A DNA stretch of 64,000 nucleotides from Rhodanobacter glycinis (lineage in GTDB: Bacteria > Pseudomonadota > Gammaproteobacteria > Xanthomonadales > Rhodanobacteraceae), in contig NZ_FOSR01000016.1 of NCBI RefSeq assembly GCF_900114325.1, positions 1 through 64,000 on the forward strand, read 5' to 3'. Below, one piece after another: positions 24,522 to 37,409 of the stretch. Position 1 is the first letter of the stretch; each line of letters opens with the position of its first letter. The notes below the pieces were generated by a model. The model was not told the DNA's origin. It did not search any database and worked only from the letters and a program-made list of their open reading frames with translations. A program made the translations under genes and the position numbers.

Positions 24522-26039
24522 TCAATTCGCAAGGAACGGATGCGGCCGTGCCAGCAAGCCGCGCCAACCACGCCGTGCCAGCCACAGCAGCGCCGCCACC
24601 AGCACGACCCAGCACGCCAGCAAGCCGTGCTCCAGGGGCGCGAGGCCATCCCATGGATGGTTGTCCGTACCCAGCAATGGAACGAAAGTGCTCAGGCAGA
24701 ACAACACCGTAAGTACAACGTAAATCGGCGCCAAAACCCCCATGTGCAACTGGCGACCACCCAGCGTGCACAGCACCTGGGCCGCCATCGCACCGATGGC
24801 GGCGAACTGGGCCAGCGCTACCAGCAGGATGGCGAGCGGTGGCAAGTGCATGACGATGGCGGCTGCCAGCACACAGGCCAGCAACAACAGCTGGGCCTTG
24901 ACCGGCGCGCCGAAGGCGGCATGCAGCAGTGCATGCCGGCAAGCGCGGGCATCGCCCAAACCCGGCAGCAGCGCCAGCAGTGGCAGTTCCGCATTCACGC
25001 GCTTCCAGCGTTGGTGGATCACCAGTGCAGCCATCGCGGCCAACATAAGGCCGCCGAACACGCCCAGCCAACCCACCACGCCGATACCGATCGACAGCAG
25101 TACGGATCGCACGGCATGGCCGTGGCGGGCTTCGCCGGCCTGCATGAATGCCATCACCGGGATGTATAGCAGGATCGGCAACAGCACCGGCGCCGTCGCG
25201 CGCAGATGGCCCGCCAGTGTCTTCGGCATGTACCAGCCGCCCAGCGCCACGCGCAATGCGCGTACCGGCGACTGAGGTCCCACCTTGCCGAGATTGGCGC
25301 GCGGCTGCATCCAGTCCGGGCGCTGGCGGATCAATTGGCCGCCGTCGAGTTGTTGCAAACCGTTCCATCCGCCAGTCCCGCCCTGGCGGCGGAGTTGCAG
25401 CAGCATCGAGCTGGTAAAACCCAGTTCCTTGTCGGCATCGCTGCGCAGCAATTGACGCCAGCGCAGCGCGTCGATCAGCAGCAACACGAGCAGCGCCGCC
25501 ATGCCCCAAACCAGCCAGCGCGGATCGGACCACGGCGGCAGATGCGCCAGGCGATGCAGCCCGCTACCCAATGCTGGCGCGAAGCCGATCACCATGGCGC
25601 ACCAGCGCGGCAACAGCACGAAGGCCATGCCACCGGCCATCGCCAGGGCCACCAGTTCGGCCACGTAGCGCATGTCCGCACCGCAGGCGCCCAGCACCAA
25701 CACCGGCAGCAGCAGGCTCGGCAACGCGTACAGCCACAAGCCGAGCGCCGCCGCCCGCTGCATGCCCGGCAGGCGCAGGCGGCGGGCGTCGATCGCCAAC
25801 AGCAACATGGTGGGCATCCAGAACGCCCATGCGAACCCCACGCTGAAGCAGTAGACCATCGTGCTGGCCAGCCACCAGTGCGGCTTCGACGAATACACGC
25901 CGATGGCCATCGCACCCAGGCTGCAACCCAGCATGAGGAACAGCATCAGCCAGTGCAGCGAACGGCGGCTCGAGCGCCACGGCGCGAGCAGGGCGCTGCC
26001 GAGGGCGATGCGCGGTGAGTCAGAAGCGTTCATGTCCAT
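24522..26039 (-). CDS. ABC transporter permease-like membrane protein, 505 aa
   Basis: About ten to twelve hydrophobic spans are spread over the protein in two groups, residues 25-190 and 285-495, separated by a soluble stretch rich in Arg and Gln (about 205-270). It lies between an ABC ATPase gene and a small membrane protein gene on the same strand, which marks it as the membrane part of an ABC exporter. No sequence motif shows what is moved. CAGGA precedes the ATG at 26039. Confidence 0.8.
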   Translation of the reverse strand: MDMNASDSPRIALGSALLAPWRSSRRSLHWLMLFLMLGCSLGAMAIGVYSSKPHWWLASTMVYCFSVGFAWAFWMPTMLLLAIDARRLRLPGMQRAAALGLWLYALPSLLLPVLVLGACGADMRYVAELVALAMAGGMAFVLLPRWCAMVIGFAPALGSGLHRLAHLPPWSDPRWLVWGMAALLVLLLIDALRWRQLLRSDADKELGFTSSMLLQLRRQGGTGGWNGLQQLDGGQLIRQRPDWMQPRANLGKVGPQSPVRALRVALGGWYMPKTLAGHLRATAPVLLPILLYIPVMAFMQAGEARHGHAVRSVLLSIGIGVVGWLGVFGGLMLAAMAALVIHQRWKRVNAELPLLALLPGLGDARACRHALLHAAFGAPVKAQLLLLACVLAAAIVMHLPPLAILLVALAQFAAIGAMAAQVLCTLGGRQLHMGVLAPIYVVLTVLFCLSTFVPLLGTDNHPWDGLAPLEHGLLACWVVLVAALLWLARRGWRGLLARPHPFLAN

Positions 26040-26103
26040 CGATCAGTCCTGCGGCAGGAAGGAATGCGGGCATGCATGCACGGCCATGCCACTCGTTGGA
26101 GAT

Positions 26104-26997
26104 TCACTCGGCGATCTCCACGAACAGGTCTTCCAGTCCCAGTGCGTCGATGCGCGCGCCGGGCAATTTCGCGGCTTCCGGCCACTGGCCGTAGGCGTCG
26201 CGTTCCACCACCAGGCTCAGGCTGCCGTCTTCGTGGCGGCGTCGGCTGAGTGAGTTGTCGGGCGCGGCGGCGCTCATTTTTGCCGGCAGCCACAGGCGGG
26301 CGTAGCGTTCCTTGGTTTCGTCCACGCCACAGCGCAGCAGCAGGCGGCCTTCGTGCAGGAAAGCGATTTCCGAGGCCACGCGCTCCAGGTCGGACACGAT
26401 ATGCGTGGAGAACAGCACGGTGGTGCCGGATTCGCCTGCGCGCAGCGCCACTTCGCGCAACAGCTCGCGACGCGCGACCGGGTCGAGTGCGGCGGCGGGC
26501 TCGTCGAGCACCAGCAGTTCCGGCTGCGAGGCCAGCGCGCGAATCAGGTCCACACGCTGGCGCTCGCCCGGCGACAGCTTGGCCAGCAGCTTGTTCGGCG
26601 CGATCTTCCAGCGCTCCAGCGTCTTGCGCGCAAACGTGGCATCCCAGCGCGGGTAGAAGCGGCCCACGTAGTCGAGCATCTGCTGCGCGGTGAGCCAGGC
26701 CAGCGCTTCGGGTTGCTGCGGCACGTAGGCGAGGCGGGCCTTGCTGTCGTCGGACAGTTTCAGCGCCGGCTCACCGAACACGAAAGCCTCACCGGCCAGT
26801 GGTTCGAGCAGGCCGAGCATGGCGCGGATCAGCGTGGACTTGCCCGCCCCGTTGCGTCCGATCAAGCCCAGCACGCTGCCCGGTTCCAGCACCAAGTCCA
26901 CGCCGGCCAGCACGCTGCTGCCCTCGTAACAATGCGCCAGGCCACGCACGGCAAGCGGTGCGGTGGTGTGTACGGTGTCCTTCAGTACGGCATTCAT
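26104..26997 (-). CDS. ABC transporter ATP-binding protein, 297 aa
   Basis: Nucleotide-binding domain with Walker A GLIGRNGAGKST, Q-loop in AYVPQQPE, signature LSPGERQRVDL, Walker B LLVLDEPAAALD, and the H-loop in LFSTHIVSDLERV. A C-terminal extension of about 75 residues follows. The order YtrA-type GntR regulator, CPBP protein, ATPase and permease matches export systems linked to cell-envelope stress. GGGGAAGGA lies before the ATG at 26997. Confidence 0.92.
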   Translation of the reverse strand: MNAVLKDTVHTTAPLAVRGLAHCYEGSSVLAGVDLVLEPGSVLGLIGRNGAGKSTLIRAMLGLLEPLAGEAFVFGEPALKLSDDSKARLAYVPQQPEALAWLTAQQMLDYVGRFYPRWDATFARKTLERWKIAPNKLLAKLSPGERQRVDLIRALASQPELLVLDEPAAALDPVARRELLREVALRAGESGTTVLFSTHIVSDLERVASEIAFLHEGRLLLRCGVDETKERYARLWLPAKMSAAAPDNSLSRRRHEDGSLSLVVERDAYGQWPEAAKLPGARIDALGLEDLFVEIAE

Positions 26998-27095
26998 TGG
27001 TCCTTCCCCCAATCTCGGTCAACGGTCGTCGCGATGGTGCGGCGAATGGCATGGTGAGTGATGGCCGATGCCCCTACGCCGGCCTGTGCGAAGCC

Positions 27096-27872
27096 TTATG
27101 GCGGCGGGTGTGCGCCAGCAAATGGGACGTCAGCCGGCACGCGCACCAGCATGGCGCGCAGGTCGATCAGCACGTGCAGCAGCATCGGCAGCAGCAGACT
27201 GCCGGTGGCCCAGTACAACCAGGCGAACAGACCACCGAGCGCGGCGGTGGCCAGCACGCCCGTCCAGCCCTGGTAGAGGTGCGCCCAGCCGAACGCCAGC
27301 GCAGCCAGCACGATCGGCACGGCGATCGGCGCGTGCGGCAGCAGCGCGAACAGCAGGCCGAGGCCGAAACCGCGCCAGATCACTTCCTCGGTGATGCCGG
27401 CCGTCACGGCCAGCGCGGCGAAGCTCCAGCGTTCGGCGCGGGTACGCGGAAGCATGCGCAACAGCTTGTCGCCGCCGGCGACACGGGGCGAATGCGTGGG
27501 CGTCGCATCCTTGCGTCGGCGCGCCAGCGCCAGCCCGATCACGATGCCGCCCACCGCGGCCAGCGCCGTACCGACCGCGAACCCGGCGATCAGGCTGCTG
27601 CCAGCCGCACCGGATGGCAAACCCGTCGGCCAATGCGGTACGCGCAGGCCGAGTTGCGCCGGAGTCCATCCGGCCACGCCCAGGGTCACGAACAATGTGA
27701 CCAGCAGCAAGATCCAGCCCTGCCATGTCCATTGACGGTAGAAGCGTCGCCGCGCGCCCGGTGCGTCCGCATCCAGCGCGGCCAGCAACTGGCGATGCGC
27801 ATGGCGGCCCAACAGCGGTTCGGCGGTCAGCAGGTAAAGCGCGAGTACGGCGATGGCGAGCGAGGCAAGCAT
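27096..27872 (-). CDS. CPBP-family intramembrane metalloprotease-like protein, 258 aa
   Basis: A multi-span membrane protein of the CAAX-protease/bacteriocin-processing (CPBP, Abi) family. The glutamate motif is ITEEVIWRGFGLGLL (EExxxR). The second motif is FGWAHLYQGWTG and the third LLPMLLHVLIDL, giving the expected Glu and His residues. Members process prenylated proteins or confer bacteriocin immunity, but here the substrate is unknown. The gene starts one base after the regulator's stop codon, so they share a transcript. Confidence 0.87.
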   Translation of the reverse strand: MLASLAIAVLALYLLTAEPLLGRHAHRQLLAALDADAPGARRRFYRQWTWQGWILLLVTLFVTLGVAGWTPAQLGLRVPHWPTGLPSGAAGSSLIAGFAVGTALAAVGGIVIGLALARRRKDATPTHSPRVAGGDKLLRMLPRTRAERWSFAALAVTAGITEEVIWRGFGLGLLFALLPHAPIAVPIVLAALAFGWAHLYQGWTGVLATAALGGLFAWLYWATGSLLLPMLLHVLIDLRAMLVRVPADVPFAGAHPPP

Positions 27873-27873
27873 C

Positions 27874-28257
27874 TCAATCCCCCAGCAGCTTGGTCAGGCG
27901 ACGCAAGACGGGTTCGGCGGGCAGCTCCAGTTCGCGCACGTGCCGCGCCAGTTCCAGCAACTGCGGTTCCAGCAAGGCCAGCCGCTGGTGCTGGGTGTGC
28001 GAAGCCTTTTGCGTGGCCGCCACCGCCATGCCCTTGCCGCGCAGGCGTTCCAGCAGGCCCTCGCCTTCGGCGATGCCGTAGGCGCGCGACACCGTCATCG
28101 GGTTCACCGCGTGGAAACCCGCCATTTCGCGCACCGACGGAAGCAACTCACCCGGCGCGATCTGCCCACCGGCAATCAATCGGCGCAACTGTTCCACGAG
28201 CTGGCGGTAAATCGGCTCGGGCGCGGCGGGTTGAATGGTGAACAGCGATGCATCCAT
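27874..28257 (-). CDS. GntR-family regulator, YtrA subfamily, 127 aa
   Basis: A short regulator with the N-terminal GntR winged helix (PIYRQLVEQLRRLIAGGQIA, then LPSVREMAGFHAVNPMTVSR) and only a short helical C-terminal dimerisation region, as in the YtrA subfamily. YtrA proteins repress their own ABC-transporter operons. It is the first gene of the run that continues through the CPBP, ATPase and permease genes. A palindrome adjoins the start. The ATG at 28257 is chosen; a TTG three codons upstream is possible. Confidence 0.88.
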   Translation of the reverse strand: MDASLFTIQPAAPEPIYRQLVEQLRRLIAGGQIAPGELLPSVREMAGFHAVNPMTVSRAYGIAEGEGLLERLRGKGMAVAATQKASHTQHQRLALLEPQLLELARHVRELELPAEPVLRRLTKLLGD

Positions 28258-28279
28258 GTGTATCAATACAACAATACAC
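28258..28279. promoter_or_regulatory. Candidate YtrA operator
   Basis: GTGTAT-N10-ATACAC, a 22-bp inverted repeat directly abutting the regulator's start codon. Its outer GTG-N16-CAC spacing agrees with the GGTG-N16-CACC box that I recall for Xanthomonas YtrA. The site lies where repression would block the operon promoter. Confidence 0.6.
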
Positions 28280-28459: not shown

Positions 28460-29023
28460 TCAAGGCTTTGCCAAGACTGAGTCTAGGCGTCTGGCACTGC
28501 GCCTGCGTTTGCATATCCGCATCAGGCTGGCCGCACGATGAGCGGCGATGCCTGCACCCCAAGCCAGCAAGCCATATGCGACGCCAGCCGATGCACTGTC
28601 GTCGTTGACGCCCTTCGCAAACAGCAACGCGGCACCGAGGCAGATCACCGGCAGAGGGATCGTGATCATGTCGAGTATGGAACGCCGCAGACTGAACGAG
28701 GCGGCTGCTCTGGTAGAAAAAACAAGTCTTGCAAATTCAGCCTCGCCTCCTGCGTGGCGGACCAAGGGGGCCATCTGCATGTTTGAAAAGGCCATCACGC
28801 AGGACATTGTCCCAACCACGATCCCGAGAAAGGGCGAGGCAAACGCGAACAGTGCCAGAAGAACCGACGCCAAGACATATTTCCAGCCGAACCGGTGTGC
28901 CAGCCAGTTGCCTTCCAGCCGGAGCGTGGGGGTAACCAGGAATGTCGACGTCACGTCCAGCACCCTCCCTGCCAATGCAAATCCGAACGCGTACCAAATG
29001 TCTATAGCGCTTGTTGTCGCCAT
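28460..29023 (-). CDS. Orphan membrane protein, 187 aa
   Basis: No named family is recognised. Four or five hydrophobic segments are seen: residues 8-27, 46-72, 75-88 (less certain), 112-137 and 145-163. The N-terminus has GRVLDVTSTFLVTPTLRLEGN and the tail is basic. GRxxDxxxTxxV-like motifs recur in small uncharacterised membrane proteins, but no role is known. The gene stands alone, divergent from the alpha-2-macroglobulin gene. AGGGG lies before the ATG at 29023. Confidence 0.75.
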   Translation of the reverse strand: MATTSAIDIWYAFGFALAGRVLDVTSTFLVTPTLRLEGNWLAHRFGWKYVLASVLLALFAFASPFLGIVVGTMSCVMAFSNMQMAPLVRHAGGEAEFARLVFSTRAAASFSLRRSILDMITIPLPVICLGAALLFAKGVNDDSASAGVAYGLLAWGAGIAAHRAASLMRICKRRRSARRLDSVLAKP

Positions 29024-29374
29024 GCCACACCCCTGACTCGACTGGGAGGAATCTTGCACCGAGCACGACAGACATATCCACTGGAAGGGCCGGCCATCGT
29101 CCAGTCGCAACCGATGACGTCGTTACGGGACTTTTATCTGATTAGCTTCTCAATCCCATGTCGAGGCAGGTGTTCGTTTCGACCGTTGCCGTTGCCGGGT
29201 ACCAAAAAGGGCGCGCATCGGCACCGATTGTGGCGCATCGATGCACGGCGTGAGTCGGCTTGCTGATGTTGTGCGCGGGATGCGCCGGAGGGACATGTCG
29301 TCCATGTACCCTTGCGGTGTGGAAGGGTGCGGAGGTCCGCGCCGTTGGTTCACTGGATCGGGGGAACACGGAAG
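29024..29374. other. Divergent intergenic region, 351 bp
   Basis: Contains no convincing gene, repeat or hairpin. It must hold the promoters for the orphan membrane protein and for the alpha-2-macroglobulin/PBP1C pair. Part of it (29135-29215) is less GC-rich than its surroundings and is the likeliest promoter area. Confidence 0.5.
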
Positions 29375-32300
29375 ATGAGCACGCTGCAACGTTGCATGAT
29401 CCTCGCCGCCACCTGCGTGCTGGCGTTCATCCAGACCGGCGCTGCGCGCGCCGCCGATGGCGACTTGCAGGTGCGTCGCATCTCGCCGTCGGGCACGAAC
29501 GTGCAGCCGGGGCAGGAGGCGGTGATTCAGTTCGATCGGGCGATGGTGCCGCTGGGCCACATGGGCCGCGACAGCGCCACGCTGCCGGTGCATATCAAGC
29601 CCGATCCGGGTTGCCAGTGGCGCTGGCTGGATACCAGCGAACTAGCTTGCCGCCTGGCCGGGCAGCAACGTTTCAGTCCGGCCACGCGCTACACCATCAC
29701 CGTCGGCACCGCGCTCAAGGCGATGGACGGCAGCCACTTGGCCGCGCCGGTCACGCAGGATTTCACTACCTGGCGTCCGCAGGTGTTGTGGAGCGAGTTC
29801 CGGCACTGGCTGTCGCCGGTGATGCCGCAATACCTGTTGCGCTTCAACATGCGCGTCACCGCCGCCGAAGTGGCGCGACATATCGGTTTCGATGACGGTC
29901 ACGGCCACGTGGTGGCAGCGAAGGTGACACCGTTCACCAGGAAACGGCAGGGCCCACTGTGGCTGCCGGTGCCGGGTGCGCCGGGCGCCGTGGTCGAGGT
30001 GGATGCGCCCAGCCCGGATACCCCGCTGGATGCTCACGCCGACGCCACGCAGGGTCGGCGGGTGTGGCTGGTCAAGCCGGCGCATGCGCTGGCGCCGGCG
30101 CAGCATTACACGTTGCTCGCGCAGCCGGGCATGCGCTCGCCGCTGGGCCCGTTGCCGAGCAAGCAGACCGATCTCGATGGCGATACCGGCATCACCACCT
30201 ACGGCGCCTTCGCCTTCGCCGGCATCGGGTGTCGCGACAGCGGCGACCGTGCACAGATGCAGGCGCCCGGCGATGCCGTCGGTTCGCGTTGTCGCCCGAA
30301 CAGCCTCAATCTGCTGTTCAGTTCGCCGGTGCCGCGCGCGACGCTGGCGGCGATTCGCTGGAAGCCGTTGCCGATGCCGCGCGATCGGCTGGCGGCGATC
30401 TGGCGTGATTACCCGCAATGGTTCCTGCGCGAGCCGCGCAGCCCGACCGATGCCGAGCAGCCTGACCGCTTCCCGTTGACCTTCAAGCTCGATCCGATGC
30501 GCGACTACGCCGTGACCGTGCCGGCCGGGGTGAAGGATCGCTTTGGCCGCACGCTGGCCAAACCGGTGACGCTCACATTCCAGACCGGCCATCGGGTGCC
30601 GTTCATCAATCCGCCACCCAGCGAAGCCGTGCTGGAAGCTGGCCAGGCCACCATCGCGCCACTGAGTTTCACCAACCTCGACCGTCTCGATTTCAACTAT
30701 CGCCGCCTGTTCGCCGGTGATCTGGCTACGGGCACGTCGCCCGCGCCGGCACAGGATGCGGATCTGCTCAAACGGCCCGACCTGGCGGTGGCGCCGGATC
30801 GGCTGGTGCGTGGCCGGCTCGGCGTGCGCAAACTGCTCGATGGCCGTTCCGGCGTGCTCTGGGGCACGCTGGATTGGTCGCCGAACCATCCCTGGCAGCC
30901 CTATGACTTCATGGGCGAAGTGACGCCGTACCAGGTGCTGGCCAAGGTCGGTCATTTCGACACCCTGGTCTGGGTCAGCCGCCTGGACACGGGGGCGCCG
31001 GTAGCCGGCATGCGCGTGGGCATGTACGTCGGGCAGGACAATGCACTGGACCCGCTGGCCCTCGTCGCCGGCAAGCCGGTGTCCACCGACGCCCATGGCG
31101 TGGCCGTGTTGCCGGGTGCCGCGACCTTGCCCACGTCCTGGTTCGAGCCGTGGAAGACGCACAAGCATTTCTACATCGGTGCCACCCGCGCCGACACGCT
31201 GGCGCTGCTGCCGCTGGACTGGTCGTTCAAGCGCTCCGTCGGCGACGCCAGCCATTACGCCTTCAGCGCCAGCAACGCGCCGGCGCACGGCCACATGCGC
31301 GTGTGGGCGGTGACCGAGCAGGGCATCTACAAGCCCGGCAGCGACGTGCGTTTCATCGCCTTCGTGCGTGATGAAGGCCGCGCCACCCTGGTCGCGCCGC
31401 CGGCGCTGGATTACACGCTCCAGATCACCGACCCGACCGGCAACACGGTGCTGGAGAAGAAGCACGCCAAGCTGTCGTCATTTGGCGGTATGGACGGCCA
31501 ATTGCACATACCGGCTACCGCTGCCACTGGAAGCTACAGCATCTCGCTGAGCTGGCCGACCGCCACCGGCACGATCAGCCGGCAGGCCGGGCAGTTCATG
31601 GTCACCGACTTCGTGCCCGCAACGTTCCAGGTGCGCACGCTGTTGCAGGGCACGCGTTTTGGCCCCGGCGAAAAAGTGGATGTACGGGCCACCGCCGCGC
31701 TGCACGCCGGTGGCCCGTACACCGACGCCAAGGTGCGCTTCACCACGCAACTGATCCCGCGCGCCTTTGCACCGGATACACCGGTGGCTGCAGGTTTCGA
31801 CTTCAACGACGACGAGGCGACCTACGTCGGCCCGACCACCGTGGCACAGACCGAAGGCATGCTCGGCCACGACGGCGCGGCCGCCACGCAGGTGGTGTTG
31901 CCGAAGGACAGCCCGGTGCTCTACGGCGATATCGCGGTGGAAGCCGCGGTGGAATCGGCCCGCGCCACCTGGGTGGCCAACAGCGCGCATGCCGTCTACG
32001 CCGCGCGCGACCGTTTCGTCGGCGTGCGCACCAGCGACTGGATGCAGACCGCCGGCAAGCCGTTCGACGTGCAGTATCTGGTGGTCGATGCGGCGGGCCA
32101 GCCGCAGGCCGGCAGCCCGGTACGGATCGAACTGCAGCGCCAGGTGATCAGCAGCGTGCGGGTGAAGAACGGCGCCGGCGATTTCACGCCCGACCAGAAA
32201 GTCGACTGGAAGACCGAGGCCGAATGCAAGGCCAGCTCCGGCAAGGCTCCGGCGAAGTGCGCGTTGACGGCGAAACAAGCTGGCAGCTATCGCATCGTCG

Positions 32301-35203
32301 CCCACGTCACCGACACCCGCGGCCGCGTGCAGCGCAGCACCCTGTCGACCTGGGTCACCGGTGCCGGTGGCGTGGTCTGGCCGCAAGGCAAGGGCGTCAC
32401 CCTGGTGCCGGACAAGTCCAGCTACCACGTCGGCGACATCGCCCACGTGCTGGTGCAGAACCCGTATCCGGGCGCCCGCGCGCTGATTACAGTGGAACGC
32501 TACGGCGTGCTGTGGAAGAAACTGGTGACGCTGAAGGGCGGCGCGCCGGTGATCGACGTGCCGATCGGCGCGGACTGCTTCCCCGGCGCCTATCTGTCGG
32601 TGGCGATCTTCTCGCCGCGGGTCAGCCCGCCGGCGGATCCCGATCTCGGTCGTCCCGAGCTGGCGCTGGGTTACATGGCGCTGAAGGTGAGTGGCAAGGG
32701 CAGCGCGTTGAAGGTCGACGTGAAACCCGCAGCGGCGCAGTACAAGCCGCGCCAGACCGTGCAGGTGGACGTCGACGTGCACGGCCAGGATGGCCACGCG
32801 CCCGGTAGCACCCGGCTGGTGGCGATCGTGGTCGACCAGTCGGTGGTCGATTTGTTGCAGCAGGGTGCGAAGTACTACGACCCGCTGGCACGCTTCTATG
32901 CACCGCCGGACGGCCCCGATGTCACCAACTTCAGCCTGGCCGAGCAGTTGCTGACGCAGTTGCAGCCGAAGGCCGGCAAGGGCGAAAGCCCGGGTGGCGG
33001 CGGTGGCGAAAGCGCCGGTCCGAACGTGCGCAGCAACTTCAGCTACGCGACCTACTGGAACGACAAGCTGACCACCGATACGGCCGGCCATGCGCATTTC
33101 AGCTTCACCGTGCCGGACAATCTCACCCGCTGGCGCATCCTGGTGATCGCGATGCGGCCCGGCGCGGAAATGGGCCTTGGCAACACCAGCGTGCAGGTCA
33201 ACCTGCCGCTGCAGATCCAGCCTGCCTTGCCGAACCAGATGCACGTGGGCGACCAGTTCGGCGCCGCGTTCAATGTCACCAATCGCACCAGCAAAACCTT
33301 GCACGTGCATACCCGCATCGAGGCCAGCGGACCGATCGAAGGCGGCAAGGCCGCGGCGACCGATGCGTTGAAGCTGGGCGCCTTCGGCCACGGCCTGCGC
33401 TGGTTGCAGCTGGCGGCGACCGCGCCGGGCAGCATCACGCTCACCGCCAGTGCGCAGGCCGGCAAGCTGGGCGACGCGGTGCGCGCGCAGATTCCGGTGA
33501 CGATCGCCGGCACCGAGGTGGTGGCGGCCGAGTACGGCAGCACGCTCGGCGCCAGCGCGCAGGTGCCGGTGAAGGTGCCGGCGCAGGCGTTGCCGGGCAC
33601 GTCGAAAGTGGAAGTGAAACTCGCGCCGACCCTGGTCGGCGGCCTCGACGGTGCCTTCGCGGTATTGCGCGACGACTTGCTGCGCACCTGGGAAATCCGC
33701 CTCAGCCGCGGCGTGCTGGCGTCCGATTACCTGCGCCTGAAACCGGTGCTGGGCGATACCGTGACATGGCCGCACGCGGCGAAGGACATCGACGCCACGC
33801 TGGCGGCTGCCGCCGATTTCCAGGCGCCGGACGGCGGCATGGCGTTCTGGATTCCGCGCGACCATTTCGTCAGTCCCTACCTCAGCGTCTACACCGCGCT
33901 GGCCTTCGACTGGTTCGAGGAAGCCGGTCATCCGGTGCCGGCCTCGGTGCGCGAGCATCTGCAGGGTTATCTGCAGCAGAAGATCCTCGCCAAGGGCGCC
34001 AACCCGGATGATGTCGCCGCGCCGGTGCTGCGCGCCGGTGCGCTGGCGGCCCTGGCGCCCAGCGGCAAACTGCCCGCAGGCGCGGTGGCCGGCATGCTGC
34101 CGGAACTGCCGAAGCTGCGCCTGTTCGGCCAGGCCTTGCTGCTGGATGCCGCGCTGGGCACGCACGACCACGTCAGTGCGCAGGTGATCGTGAAGTCGCT
34201 GCTGTCGCACGCCGAGGAATCGGCCGGCGAAATTTCCTTCAACGAGGACGAACCGGGCATTTACCTCGACCTGCTGGGCACGCCGCTGCGTTCCAACTGC
34301 GCCGTGCTCGACGCGCTGTCGCGCTACAAGACCGAGATCGGCGAGCAGGGCCTGCTCGGCACCACGCCGCAGAAGCTGATGCGCTGGGTGGCGTCGCGGC
34401 GACGCAATGCCGGCGGCTGGCCGAACAGCCAGGAGAATGTGTTCTGCACCAGCGCCATCGTGCATTACGCCGATGCCTACGAGCCGCCGGTGCACGATTT
34501 GTCGGCGCAGGTGCAGTGGCCCGGGCAGGCGCCCGCCACGGCGACATTCGCGGCGCGCAGCACGCCGGGCACGTCGATCTCGGCGCCCGCGGCGGCGCCA
34601 GGCCAGAACTTCAACGTCGACGTGACGCATGGCGGCCAGGGCCGCCTGTACTACAACGTGCTGGTGAGTTACGCGATGGCGCCCGATGCGCTGCCGCCGG
34701 CCGATGCCGGCTTCACCCTCAAGCGCAGCTATGCCGTGCAGCACGGTCGCCACTGGGTGCCGGTGGGGCCGGCCAGCGTGCTCAAGCGTGGCGATATCGT
34801 GCGCGTGGCGCTGGATGTGGATGCGCCCACCGAACGCCACCACGTGGTGGTGACCGATCCGTTGCCCGGCGCCTTCGAGGCGGTCAACCGGCAACTGGCC
34901 ACCGCCGCGCAGACCACGCCGTCGGCGCAGCCCGGCTTGTCGGTGCTGATGTTCGACAGTGGCCCGTGGCCGAACATGTCAATCGTCGACGGCGGCTTCT
35001 ACCACCGCGAGACCGCCTTCGATGCCGTGCGTTTCTATGCCGACGACCTGCCGGCCGGGCACTACCGGCTGGTGTATTCGGCGCAGGTGATCGCGCCGGG
35101 TCGGTTCATCGCGCCGGCGCCGCAGGTGAAGGAGATCTACCAGCCCGACGTGTTCGGTCGCGGTGCGCCGCAGCACCTGCGCGTGATCTTGCCGGAGGAT
35201 TGA
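29375..35203 (+). CDS. Bacterial alpha-2-macroglobulin lacking the thioester motif, 1942 aa
   Basis: A very large secreted protein with a signal peptide (MILAATCVLAFIQTGAARA) and a chain of macroglobulin-like beta domains. The A2M-family domain lies around residues 1225-1330 (VPDNLTRWRILVIAMRPG), followed by a thioester-type helical domain (about 1430-1700, with QAPDGGMAFW). The CxEQ thioester motif is missing: at the expected place near residue 1437 the sequence reads RTWEIRLSR. No CxEQ occurs elsewhere. The signal lacks a lipobox. It is four bases from pbpC, the known pairing of periplasmic macroglobulins with PBP1C, which suggests defence or repair at damaged peptidoglycan. Confidence 0.9.
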   Translation: MSTLQRCMILAATCVLAFIQTGAARAADGDLQVRRISPSGTNVQPGQEAVIQFDRAMVPLGHMGRDSATLPVHIKPDPGCQWRWLDTSELACRLAGQQRFSPATRYTITVGTALKAMDGSHLAAPVTQDFTTWRPQVLWSEFRHWLSPVMPQYLLRFNMRVTAAEVARHIGFDDGHGHVVAAKVTPFTRKRQGPLWLPVPGAPGAVVEVDAPSPDTPLDAHADATQGRRVWLVKPAHALAPAQHYTLLAQPGMRSPLGPLPSKQTDLDGDTGITTYGAFAFAGIGCRDSGDRAQMQAPGDAVGSRCRPNSLNLLFSSPVPRATLAAIRWKPLPMPRDRLAAIWRDYPQWFLREPRSPTDAEQPDRFPLTFKLDPMRDYAVTVPAGVKDRFGRTLAKPVTLTFQTGHRVPFINPPPSEAVLEAGQATIAPLSFTNLDRLDFNYRRLFAGDLATGTSPAPAQDADLLKRPDLAVAPDRLVRGRLGVRKLLDGRSGVLWGTLDWSPNHPWQPYDFMGEVTPYQVLAKVGHFDTLVWVSRLDTGAPVAGMRVGMYVGQDNALDPLALVAGKPVSTDAHGVAVLPGAATLPTSWFEPWKTHKHFYIGATRADTLALLPLDWSFKRSVGDASHYAFSASNAPAHGHMRVWAVTEQGIYKPGSDVRFIAFVRDEGRATLVAPPALDYTLQITDPTGNTVLEKKHAKLSSFGGMDGQLHIPATAATGSYSISLSWPTATGTISRQAGQFMVTDFVPATFQVRTLLQGTRFGPGEKVDVRATAALHAGGPYTDAKVRFTTQLIPRAFAPDTPVAAGFDFNDDEATYVGPTTVAQTEGMLGHDGAAATQVVLPKDSPVLYGDIAVEAAVESARATWVANSAHAVYAARDRFVGVRTSDWMQTAGKPFDVQYLVVDAAGQPQAGSPVRIELQRQVISSVRVKNGAGDFTPDQKVDWKTEAECKASSGKAPAKCALTAKQAGSYRIVAHVTDTRGRVQRSTLSTWVTGAGGVVWPQGKGVTLVPDKSSYHVGDIAHVLVQNPYPGARALITVERYGVLWKKLVTLKGGAPVIDVPIGADCFPGAYLSVAIFSPRVSPPADPDLGRPELALGYMALKVSGKGSALKVDVKPAAAQYKPRQTVQVDVDVHGQDGHAPGSTRLVAIVVDQSVVDLLQQGAKYYDPLARFYAPPDGPDVTNFSLAEQLLTQLQPKAGKGESPGGGGGESAGPNVRSNFSYATYWNDKLTTDTAGHAHFSFTVPDNLTRWRILVIAMRPGAEMGLGNTSVQVNLPLQIQPALPNQMHVGDQFGAAFNVTNRTSKTLHVHTRIEASGPIEGGKAAATDALKLGAFGHGLRWLQLAATAPGSITLTASAQAGKLGDAVRAQIPVTIAGTEVVAAEYGSTLGASAQVPVKVPAQALPGTSKVEVKLAPTLVGGLDGAFAVLRDDLLRTWEIRLSRGVLASDYLRLKPVLGDTVTWPHAAKDIDATLAAAADFQAPDGGMAFWIPRDHFVSPYLSVYTALAFDWFEEAGHPVPASVREHLQGYLQQKILAKGANPDDVAAPVLRAGALAALAPSGKLPAGAVAGMLPELPKLRLFGQALLLDAALGTHDHVSAQVIVKSLLSHAEESAGEISFNEDEPGIYLDLLGTPLRSNCAVLDALSRYKTEIGEQGLLGTTPQKLMRWVASRRRNAGGWPNSQENVFCTSAIVHYADAYEPPVHDLSAQVQWPGQAPATATFAARSTPGTSISAPAAAPGQNFNVDVTHGGQGRLYYNVLVSYAMAPDALPPADAGFTLKRSYAVQHGRHWVPVGPASVLKRGDIVRVALDVDAPTERHHVVVTDPLPGAFEAVNRQLATAAQTTPSAQPGLSVLMFDSGPWPNMSIVDGGFYHRETAFDAVRFYADDLPAGHYRLVYSAQVIAPGRFIAPAPQVKEIYQPDVFGRGAPQHLRVILPED

Positions 35204-35207
35204 GGCG

Positions 35208-37409
35208 ATGCGGCGGTGGCTGACAGGGGTGGCCGCATTGGCCGTGGTCGCCGCCGTCGTCCTGGCGGTGGCGACCTGGCGTGCGCTGCCGCCCCTGCCG
35301 GCGGCGCTGGTCTCGGCGTCGTCGTCATCCGTGCCGCTGCATGTCGTGGCGGCCGACGGCACGCCGCTCAACCGCAGTTATCGCGGCCGCTTCAACCATG
35401 TGGATGCGCTGCCGGCGTGGCGCATTCCGGCGCTGCTGCGTACCGCCTTCGTGGCCTCCGAAGACCAGCGCTACTGGCAGCACGGCGGCGTCGACTGGCG
35501 TGCGCGTTTCGCGGCGCTGTGGGGCAATTTGCGCGCGGGGCAGGTGCAGCGCGGCGCCAGCACCATCGGCGAGCAGGTGGCGCGCATCCTGCAACCGCGT
35601 CCGCATACGTATTGGAGCCACTGGGTCGCCGGTATCGAGGCGGGCCGCCTGTTGCGCCGCTTCGGCCATGCGCAGGTGCTGGATTTCTACCTCAACCAGG
35701 TGCCGTACGGCGCGCGCCGGCGCGGCGTGGCGCAGGCGGCGCATTACTATTTCGGGCGTGATCCGGATGCGCTTGATCCGGCCGAGCAACTGTCGTTGGC
35801 GGTGCTGGTGCGCTCGCCCAGCCGCTACGATCCGCGGCGGCATCCGCAGGCTTTGCGCCAGGCCGTGGATCAACTGGCCGGGCGCATGCGCGCAAGCGGA
35901 GCGATTGATGCAACGCAGGCCGAGGCGATTCGACGCGCGCCGATCCAGCCCGGCCAACAGGCGCTGGCGGTCGAAGCCGGCCCGTTCGTCTTGCATGCCG
36001 CCGAACGCGCCCGTGCGCTGGGCCTCACTGGCCCGGTGCTGAAGACCACGCTCGACCCCGACCTGCAGCGTTTCGTCCAGCAGGTACTGGGTCAGCGCGT
36101 GCGCACCCTGGCCACGCGCGGCGTGCGCAACGCCGCGGCGCTGGTGGTCGACAACGCCACCGGCGCGGTGCTGGCCTGGGTGGTGGCACCGCAGGATGGC
36201 CCGTTCGCGATCGACGCCGTGCTGGCGCCGCGCCAACCGGGCTCCACCTTGAAGCCGTTTGTCTATGGCCTGGCGATGGCACGCCTGGGCTGGCAACCGG
36301 ACACGGTGATTGAGGACACCCCGCTGGCCGAGAACGTGCGCGAAGGCCTGCATCGTTATCGTAACTACAGCGGCCGCTACTACGGCAAGGTCAGCCTGCG
36401 TTACGCGCTGGCCAACTCGCTCAACATCCCCGCGGTGAAGACGGCGCAGGCGGTGGGCGTGCCGGCGATCCTGGATCTGCTGCACCGGCTCGGCTTCGGC
36501 ACCTTCGAGCAGACGGCCGATTTCTACGGCCCGGCGATCGTGCTGGGCGATGGCGGCGTGCGTCTGTTCGACCTGGTGCAGGGCTACGCCAGCCTGGCCC
36601 GGCACGGCCGCTACCTGCCGTTGCACGTGCTGGCGGATACCCCGCAGCCCGACCCGGTGCCGGTGTTGCCGGCGCCGGTCACCTCGCTGCTGGCCAGCAT
36701 TTTGTCCGACCCGAACGCGCGCAGTGCGGAATTCGGTGCCGACAGCGTGCTCGACCTGCCGATGCCCACGGCGGTGAAAACCGGCACCTCCAGCGACTAC
36801 CGCGACATCTGGACCATGGGCTTCGATGATCGTTACACCGTCGGCGTGTGGATGGGCCGGCTGGATGGCGGTTCCACCGATGGCCTGACCGGCTCCAGCG
36901 GCCCGGCGCCGGTGTTGCGGCAGATCTTCGCGCGCCTGCGCACCGCCGCGCCGTATGCCGGCCTGTGGCACAGCCCGGCGTTGCAGCCGGTGCACACCTG
37001 CGAGTGGATCGGGCCACCGCCGTGCGTGCAGCGCGACGACTGGCATCTGGGCGACGTGCACGCGCCCGTGTCCGCGCCATCGACCACGACGCGTCGCGTG
37101 GCCATCGCCCGTCCGCTGCCCGGCGAAATGCTGGCCATCGATCCGCGCCTGCCGGCGGCCACCCAGCGCTACCGTTTCTCCCTCGACACGGCCGGACAGG
37201 CGATCAAGCGCGTCGTCTGGCAACTGGACGGCAAGCCGCTCGCCACCACCACGGAGGCCGCCACTTCATGGCAGATCGTGCCCGGCCCGCACACGCTCAG
37301 CGTCCGGGTCTGGCTCGATGGCGGGAATCCCGGCCACGCGCTGGAACTCGGCCCGGTCGCGTTCAGCGTGCTGGGGCAGGCGCCGCCGCATGAGGGGAGT
37401 CCCGAATAA
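35208..37409 (+). CDS. pbpC: Penicillin-binding protein 1C, 733 aa
   Basis: Bifunctional peptidoglycan synthase. An N-terminal membrane anchor (residues 5-25) is followed by a GT51 glycosyltransferase with ASEDQRYWQHGGVDW and RGASTIGEQVAR. The transpeptidase domain has PGSTLKPFVYG (catalytic Ser in SxxK), a SLN motif in ANSLNIPAVK, and the KTGTS box. A C-terminal PBP1C beta domain (about residues 630-725) completes it. The gene begins four bases after the macroglobulin stop codon and is certainly in the same operon. Confidence 0.95.
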   Translation: MRRWLTGVAALAVVAAVVLAVATWRALPPLPAALVSASSSSVPLHVVAADGTPLNRSYRGRFNHVDALPAWRIPALLRTAFVASEDQRYWQHGGVDWRARFAALWGNLRAGQVQRGASTIGEQVARILQPRPHTYWSHWVAGIEAGRLLRRFGHAQVLDFYLNQVPYGARRRGVAQAAHYYFGRDPDALDPAEQLSLAVLVRSPSRYDPRRHPQALRQAVDQLAGRMRASGAIDATQAEAIRRAPIQPGQQALAVEAGPFVLHAAERARALGLTGPVLKTTLDPDLQRFVQQVLGQRVRTLATRGVRNAAALVVDNATGAVLAWVVAPQDGPFAIDAVLAPRQPGSTLKPFVYGLAMARLGWQPDTVIEDTPLAENVREGLHRYRNYSGRYYGKVSLRYALANSLNIPAVKTAQAVGVPAILDLLHRLGFGTFEQTADFYGPAIVLGDGGVRLFDLVQGYASLARHGRYLPLHVLADTPQPDPVPVLPAPVTSLLASILSDPNARSAEFGADSVLDLPMPTAVKTGTSSDYRDIWTMGFDDRYTVGVWMGRLDGGSTDGLTGSSGPAPVLRQIFARLRTAAPYAGLWHSPALQPVHTCEWIGPPPCVQRDDWHLGDVHAPVSAPSTTTRRVAIARPLPGEMLAIDPRLPAATQRYRFSLDTAGQAIKRVVWQLDGKPLATTTEAATSWQIVPGPHTLSVRVWLDGGNPGHALELGPVAFSVLGQAPPHEGSPE

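Follow-up and report, generated by a model that had tools for sequence, protein, structure and literature searches.

A thioester-free alpha-2-macroglobulin encoded beside PBP1C in Rhodanobacter glycinis

The stretch of DNA analysed here, which we call the window, comprises positions 1 to 64,000 of contig NZ_FOSR01000016.1 from Rhodanobacter glycinis (assembly GCF_900114325.1). It encodes an alpha-2-macroglobulin (A2M) directly upstream of pbpC, the gene of a penicillin-binding protein (PBP) resembling PBP1C. Judged from its sequence, this A2M is a thioester-free, PBP1C-linked variant of the family. The codons at the thioester site, ACC TGG GAA ATC, specify TWEI (residues 1438-1441), and the changes from Cys to Thr and from Gln to Ile fall exactly on the two aligned thioester positions. 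A first-pass annotation of the window had noted that RTWEIRLSR replaces the CxEQ motif and that no CxEQ occurs elsewhere. Both observations are borne out: 74 of 91 aligned rows read CWEQ at this site, the others being TWEI (11), TWEV (2), TWEQ (1), GWEA (2) and AWEQ (1), with the Trp and Glu invariant in all rows. The alignment places no CxEQ in the domain, and C.EQ is absent from the entire protein. On this evidence, covalent capture through a Cys-Gln thioester is ruled out.

The alignment consists of 80 named loci (L numbers), the window and 10 of 20 further stretches; two rows are identical, leaving 90 distinct sequences. The named loci are the best 80 of 272 relatives, and the loss rates given below hold for near relatives. 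The annotation had described the loss for one protein; the loss stands, but it extends to a whole clade and includes most of the residues that shield the thioester. TWEI or TWEV occurs in 13 rows, namely the window and the 12 named loci L083-L094 (TWEI in ten of them, TWEV in L089 and L093). The annotation had proposed checking whether relatives in the genus keep the motif; the closest named relative, L083 from a Rhodanobacter metagenome-assembled genome (93% identity), belongs to the same TWEI/TWEV clade, as does L094 from the cultured Oleiagrimonas citrea. Of 51 further rows, compiled separately after removal of ten fragment or duplicate loci, 43 contain CxEQ, six TWEI or TWEV and two YWGP. 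Five of those six (G008, G435, G550, G551, G572) duplicate named loci, and the remaining one is the window; they do not count as extra evidence.

The thioester of bacterial A2Ms is shielded by two tyrosines of the thioester domain (TED) and by a Met-Tyr pair of the C-terminal macroglobulin domain (CTMG), as described in PMC4498604. That paper identifies the tyrosines of the E. coli protein ECAM (YfhM) as Tyr1183 and Tyr1185, which form a YPY sequence ahead of Cys1187; we confirmed this sequence in YfhM. The window A2M retains only one of the four pocket residues, Tyr1922. Among the 74 CWEQ rows, Tyr is present at position 1434 in all 74 and at position 1436 in 71 (Phe in three), and Met at position 1921 in 73. 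In the 12-row group with Thr, from which L093 and L124 were kept apart, position 1434 is Asp (11 rows) or Asn (one row), position 1436 is Leu in 12 of 12, position 1921 is Ile in all ten rows with sequence (L090, L092 and L093 do not reach the CTMG), and Tyr1922 is retained. L124, a cousin with 49% identity, reads TWEQ: it lacks the Cys, the Met and the two TED tyrosines and still has the Gln. Its sister L093 reads TWEV. We infer that Gln disappeared on two or more occasions after Cys, or else was regained in L124. The CWEQ rows have 353 conserved columns; the clade has lost 53 of them, three of the four shield residues included (hypergeometric P = 0.0115, assuming independent columns). By alignment, a clade-wide, selected replacement has taken the thioester together with most of the pocket that shields it, and a TWEQ intermediate survives.

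The reading frame is open throughout. The ratio of non-synonymous to synonymous substitution rates (dN/dS) between the window and L083 is 0.129 overall, 0.105 in the TED, 0.07 around the bait region and 0.043 in the CTMG, with 0.464 in the signal peptide. The window A2M is under purifying selection, and the open frame and dN/dS rule out a pseudogene. The new residues are constant in the clade despite synonymous codon variation: Thr1438 and Leu1436 in 14 of 14 rows, Asp1434 in 13 of 14, and Ile1921 in all 11 rows with sequence. This fixation is suggestive of a new role. In a FastTree phylogeny the 14 rows form a clade with a support of 100, placed beside CWEQ proteins of Nevskiaceae and relatives (L119, L130, L133, L136); the support values are local, many rows differ in composition, and the tree is without a complete Type II sequence (see below). 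The window A2M probably descends from a CWEQ-bearing, PBP1C-linked A2M.

Loss of the motif has left the overall architecture in place. Macroglobulin (MG) domains, bait-region domain, A2M domain, TED and C-terminal MG domain are all present, with the Pfam families bMG10, MG2, A2M_BRD, A2M and Big_5 scoring above their cut-offs, and the protein is the sole PF00207 match in the 3.87-Mb genome. An AlphaFold2 model of residues 1007-1942 has a mean pLDDT of 81.2, with low confidence for the bait and a confident TED. The annotation had called the thioester domain recognisable, and the predicted structure agrees: the modelled TED matches C4d (1hzf) with a Z-score of 20.9 and a deviation of 3.2 Å across 256 residues. 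For the model as a whole, 4u48 is a match (Z = 25.6, 801 residues), with a deviation of 15.5 Å because the domains are placed differently; further matches include 5a42, 4ziq, 4rtd and C5 structures. The TED and CTMG folds are predicted to be intact. TED helix 1 begins at Trp1439 in our model and at the equivalent Trp in a model of the CWEQ protein of Solimonas flava (L130), so that Thr1438, or the Cys it replaces, sits at the helix cap. Threonine is a good helix cap, and Thr1438 may serve as one. The bait region is also retained: its stretch 1194-1218 is near-constant in length in the clade (24-25 residues), and the bait keeps GG(D/G)GG and an invariant Arg1219.

Linkage to pbpC has been kept as well. 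The pbpC product has transglycosylase, transpeptidase and BiPBP_C domains with their catalytic motifs. It scores 441 bits against the PBP1C model TIGR02073, below the equivalog cut-off of 494.2, although this is still the best-scoring NCBIfam model; by these features it is a divergent PBP1C-like protein. Only 4 nt separate the A2M stop from pbpC, and the two are probably co-translated. A promoter scan detected no site of the sigma-70 type, against 0.5 expected from chance alone. In the clade, pbpC starts an estimated 5-22 bp past the A2M stop in nine of the nine named loci with downstream sequence. Within the genus, A2M occurs in three of 15 genomes, the same three that carry a related pbpC (at least 67% identity); in G011, one of the three, both genes are partial and lie on different contigs. 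The PBPs of the other 12 genomes reach at most 34% identity. At the family level, an A2M with at least 60% identity is present in seven of 233 genomes, and any match at E ≤ 1e-20 in 22. A comparison of the flanks of 11 loci revealed no third operon gene common to all, the recurrent downstream matches being frames at the pbpC position.

Across the 80 named loci, pbpC adjoins the A2M gene in 51, of which 40 have CWEQ and 11 do not; nine of these 11 belong to the window's clade. The annotation was therefore correct that PBP1C-paired macroglobulins usually keep the thioester. Among the 64 loci with the motif, pbpC is adjacent in 40, the contig ends in five, and pbpC is not adjacent in 19 (40 of 59 with downstream sequence). 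Among the 16 without the full motif, pbpC is adjacent in 11, the contig ends within 900 bp in four, and the remaining locus is L111. The usual rule holds, but the window A2M is not a lone exception: one or more further pbpC-linked lineages have lost the thioester too, as have A2Ms that have no pbpC neighbour.

Thioester loss is not unique to the window's clade, because other lineages have lost CxEQ too. A second lineage of the same family, grouped with a local support of 98, lacks the thioester Cys: L111 reads AWEQ, and L123 and L159 read GWEA. All three retain both tyrosines and the Met; pbpC adjoins the A2M gene in L123 and L159, and in L111 the distance is about 7 kb. A different A2M subfamily from this order was sampled at 21 loci (L062-L082), three of which show no TED. 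Seven of the 18 with a visible TED lack CxEQ (L062-L068): their residues at the Cys position are A, A, V, S, A, G and S, their YPY or YPF and Met-Tyr shield is retained, and no PBP was found in the stretches around them (wider stretches L195-L201), two of which end 0.4-1.5 kb past the gene. Yet another replacement, YWGP, is found at the thioester site of L055 and L056, and of G441 and G448, which have no PBP within 18 kb. Same-family A2Ms belonging to a third subfamily have YWGP in L190 (3752-9763) and L191 (7183-13074), compared with CWEQ in their relatives L192 and L193; no PBP lies within 18 kb of these two. As far as these sequences go, the window's clade is distinguished by the combination of uniform replacement, shield loss and pbpC retention.

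Published work divides bacterial A2Ms into Type I, with a thioester and linkage to PBP1C, and Type II, with no thioester and a mag operon. The idea of a PBP1C-A2M association reportedly goes back to Budd et al. in 2004. The window A2M resembles Type I proteins (E. coli YfhM, Salmonella SaA2M) in its MG domains, bait, TED and CTMG, in its fold matches (4u48, 5a42, 4ziq, 4rtd) and in the position of its gene directly upstream of pbpC, as seen for YfhM. It differs from them in lacking CLEQ, the shielding YPY and the Met, in being about 300 residues longer, and in its low identity of about 20-24% in aligned stretches. It also lacks a lipobox, unlike YfhM, which begins MKKLRVAACMLMLALAGC. Like the Type II proteins MagD of P. 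aeruginosa and YfaS of E. coli, it has a bait but no CxEQ, lacks a lipobox and would be periplasmic; however, the mag operon that encodes MagD has six genes, and MagD depends on MagB, whereas the neighbours of the window A2M are pbpC and an Exo_endo_phos gene. DUF1175 and DUF2138 of the mag/yfa operon are absent from the genome (DUF2135 and DUF2300 were not searched for). Full-length homology at 31-37% identity, with the same architecture and no lipobox, is found in long pbpC-linked A2Ms of Solimonas, Hahella, Micavibrio, desulfobacteria and others; unlike the window A2M, all 74 CWEQ rows retain the C, W, E and Q. In animals, complement C5 is a thioester-less relative of C3. It resembles the window A2M as a relative of thioester proteins that has kept the TED fold without the bond; being convertase-activated and having no bait trap, it is an analogy only. 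By motif and gene order, the window A2M fits neither published type, combining a Type I neighbour without thioester, shield or lipobox with a Type II motif loss without a mag operon. We found no report of a thioester-free, PBP1C-linked A2M in the open-licence literature.

The features discussed are collected in Table 1. A regular-expression survey of the 80 loci revealed no N-terminal lipobox; its 22 matches are all false, lying inside the mature protein or, in L086, in a signal region without the full lipobox context. Absence of a lipobox does not go hand in hand with thioester loss, as the CWEQ relatives also lack one. Eight cysteines of the A2M (80/92, 286/306, 951/962, 1642/1691) are conserved in 81-86 of the 91 rows; their spacing likely reflects four disulphide pairs, consistent with a periplasmic location. 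Upstream, a minus-strand open reading frame (28460-29110) that diverges from the A2M gene has no Pfam or NCBIfam match. Beyond it, also on the minus strand, a group of genes (24522-28266) encodes a GntR regulator, an Rce1-like CAAX protease homologue, an ABC ATPase and a large membrane protein without Pfam match, and is likely an ABC-transporter operon.

Table 1. Coordinates of the A2M/pbpC features in the window and of the second-lineage A2M genes in their own loci.
Feature	Position	Strand	Basis
A2M, 1,942 aa, thioester-free, pbpC-linked	29375..35203	+	open reading frame and Pfam domains
Signal peptide, SPase I type (...AARA/ADG, cut at the slash), no lipobox	29375..29452	+	read from sequence
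Bait region, residues 1181-1222, Gly-rich, predicted disordered	32915..33040	+	homology to ECAM bait; low pLDDT
TED, residues 1421-1705, alpha/alpha fold predicted to be kept	33635..34489	+	predicted structure; C4d match
D1434-L-L1436 in place of shielding Y-P-Y	33674..33682	+	alignment; tyrosine function from PMC4498604
T1438-W-E-I1441 in place of C-W-E-Q	33686..33697	+	alignment
C-terminal MG domain (bMG10/CTMG), residues 1779-1942	34709..35200	+	Pfam; most constrained domain
I1921-Y1922 in place of shielding Met-Tyr pair	35135..35140	+	alignment
GGAGG within the end of the A2M gene, possible pbpC ribosome-binding site	35194..35198	+	sequence
pbpC, PBP1C-like bifunctional PBP, 733 aa	35208..37409	+	domains; motifs SEDQRYWQHGG, GASTIGEQ, STLK, SLN, KTG
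Second-lineage A2M, L111	8635-14988		
Second-lineage A2M, L123	4626-10688		
Second-lineage A2M, L159	8827-14910		

What might such a protein do? The reading we prefer, with a probability of roughly 0.55, is a thioester-free A2M coupled to PBP1C, in which the reactive site was first remodelled and later fixed, and which would hold proteases non-covalently. The annotation had left two options, non-covalent trapping or some other activity; we favour the first because MagD, a bacterial A2M without a thioester, holds TEV protease in this manner (PMC5764988). Cleaved ECAM bait competes successfully with the TED for the CTMG, after which the cage closes (PMC4498604); all parts needed for closure of this type are still present in the window A2M. 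A protease entering the periplasm would cut the bait region of the secreted A2M encoded with PBP1C, the MG ring and TED arm would rearrange as in the E. coli protein, and the protease would be kept in the cage without a covalent bond, PBP1C meanwhile repairing the wall.

Several points weigh against this reading. Salmonella A2M with an inactivated thioester could not trap its protease (PMC5764988), and trapping may therefore have been lost along with the bond. Bait conservation extends across the family, with or without a thioester, so that retention of the bait does not discriminate. The excess of shield losses is modest, and the two tyrosines neighbour the Cys and hence are not independent. 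The dN/dS values are based on a single sequence pair. Finally, conservation of the motif stretch compared with the TED (0.90 versus 0.70 in the clade) is relatively no higher than in a 25-row CWEQ sample (0.67 versus 0.52), and the 14 clade rows in any case share 68 invariant TED columns out of 220; for these two reasons the fixation of the new residues supports a new role but does not prove it.

It is possible, though on balance unlikely, that the window A2M no longer traps at all and serves wall repair as a scaffold or a sensor of cleavage, its remodelled TED-CTMG face having become a fixed interface for PBP1C or for a different partner in the envelope. The uniform, clade-wide replacement of the reactive pocket, the strong constraint on the CTMG, and the tight linkage and co-occurrence with pbpC would all suit such a role, and binding of PBP1C by the C-terminus of E. 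coli A2M has been proposed (PMC3328433); yet the bait, which a scaffold would not need, is retained and constrained. Relaxed drift, in which the thioester simply decayed and the site has no specific use, gains from the recurrence of loss in L111, L123/L159, L055/L056 and the mixed L062-L068, but it appears improbable to us given the open frame, the low dN/dS of the TED, and new residues common to 13-14 of 14 rows with synonymous variation, unlike the mixture in L062-L068. We consider it very unlikely that the protein is a Type II A2M of the MagD/YfaS kind that came to lie beside pbpC by chance. This would account for the absence of CxEQ and lipobox, as in MagD (PMC5764988), and for a slightly better blastp E-value to an open YfaS segment (1e-17) than to YfhM (2e-13), only open pieces being compared as YfaS of K-12 is a broken gene; but the nearest relatives are CWEQ proteins, beside which the window A2M nests in the tree, the family profile scores YfhM (136.6 bits) above the YfaS segment (107.1 bits), and the DUF1175 and DUF2138 partners are missing. 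A sequencing error or frameshift at 33680-33700, which the annotation had raised, has a negligible chance and is ruled out because 12 named loci from other assemblies carry the same residues, and neither of the two other forward frames contains CxEQ at the site.

In the published scheme, linkage to PBP1C goes with a thioester, and absence of the thioester with a mag operon. The window's clade separates the two traits, which makes it suited to asking directly what the linkage to PBP1C is for. Should an A2M linked to PBP1C prove functional without capturing covalently, as in the non-covalent reading that we prefer, the shared function of these proteins would be the bait-triggered change and not the bond. 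For natural comparisons there are L124 with its TWEQ and the second lineage, which lost the bond and kept its shield. More tentatively, and rather doubtfully at present, the clade may represent a third kind of bacterial A2M, in which the former thioester site (DxLxTWE[IV]RLSR together with CTMG Ile1921) is a fixed, non-reactive interface that either governs the change triggered at the bait or serves to bind PBP1C. If this were true, wall repair would be switched by bait cleavage and not by covalent capture of a protease.

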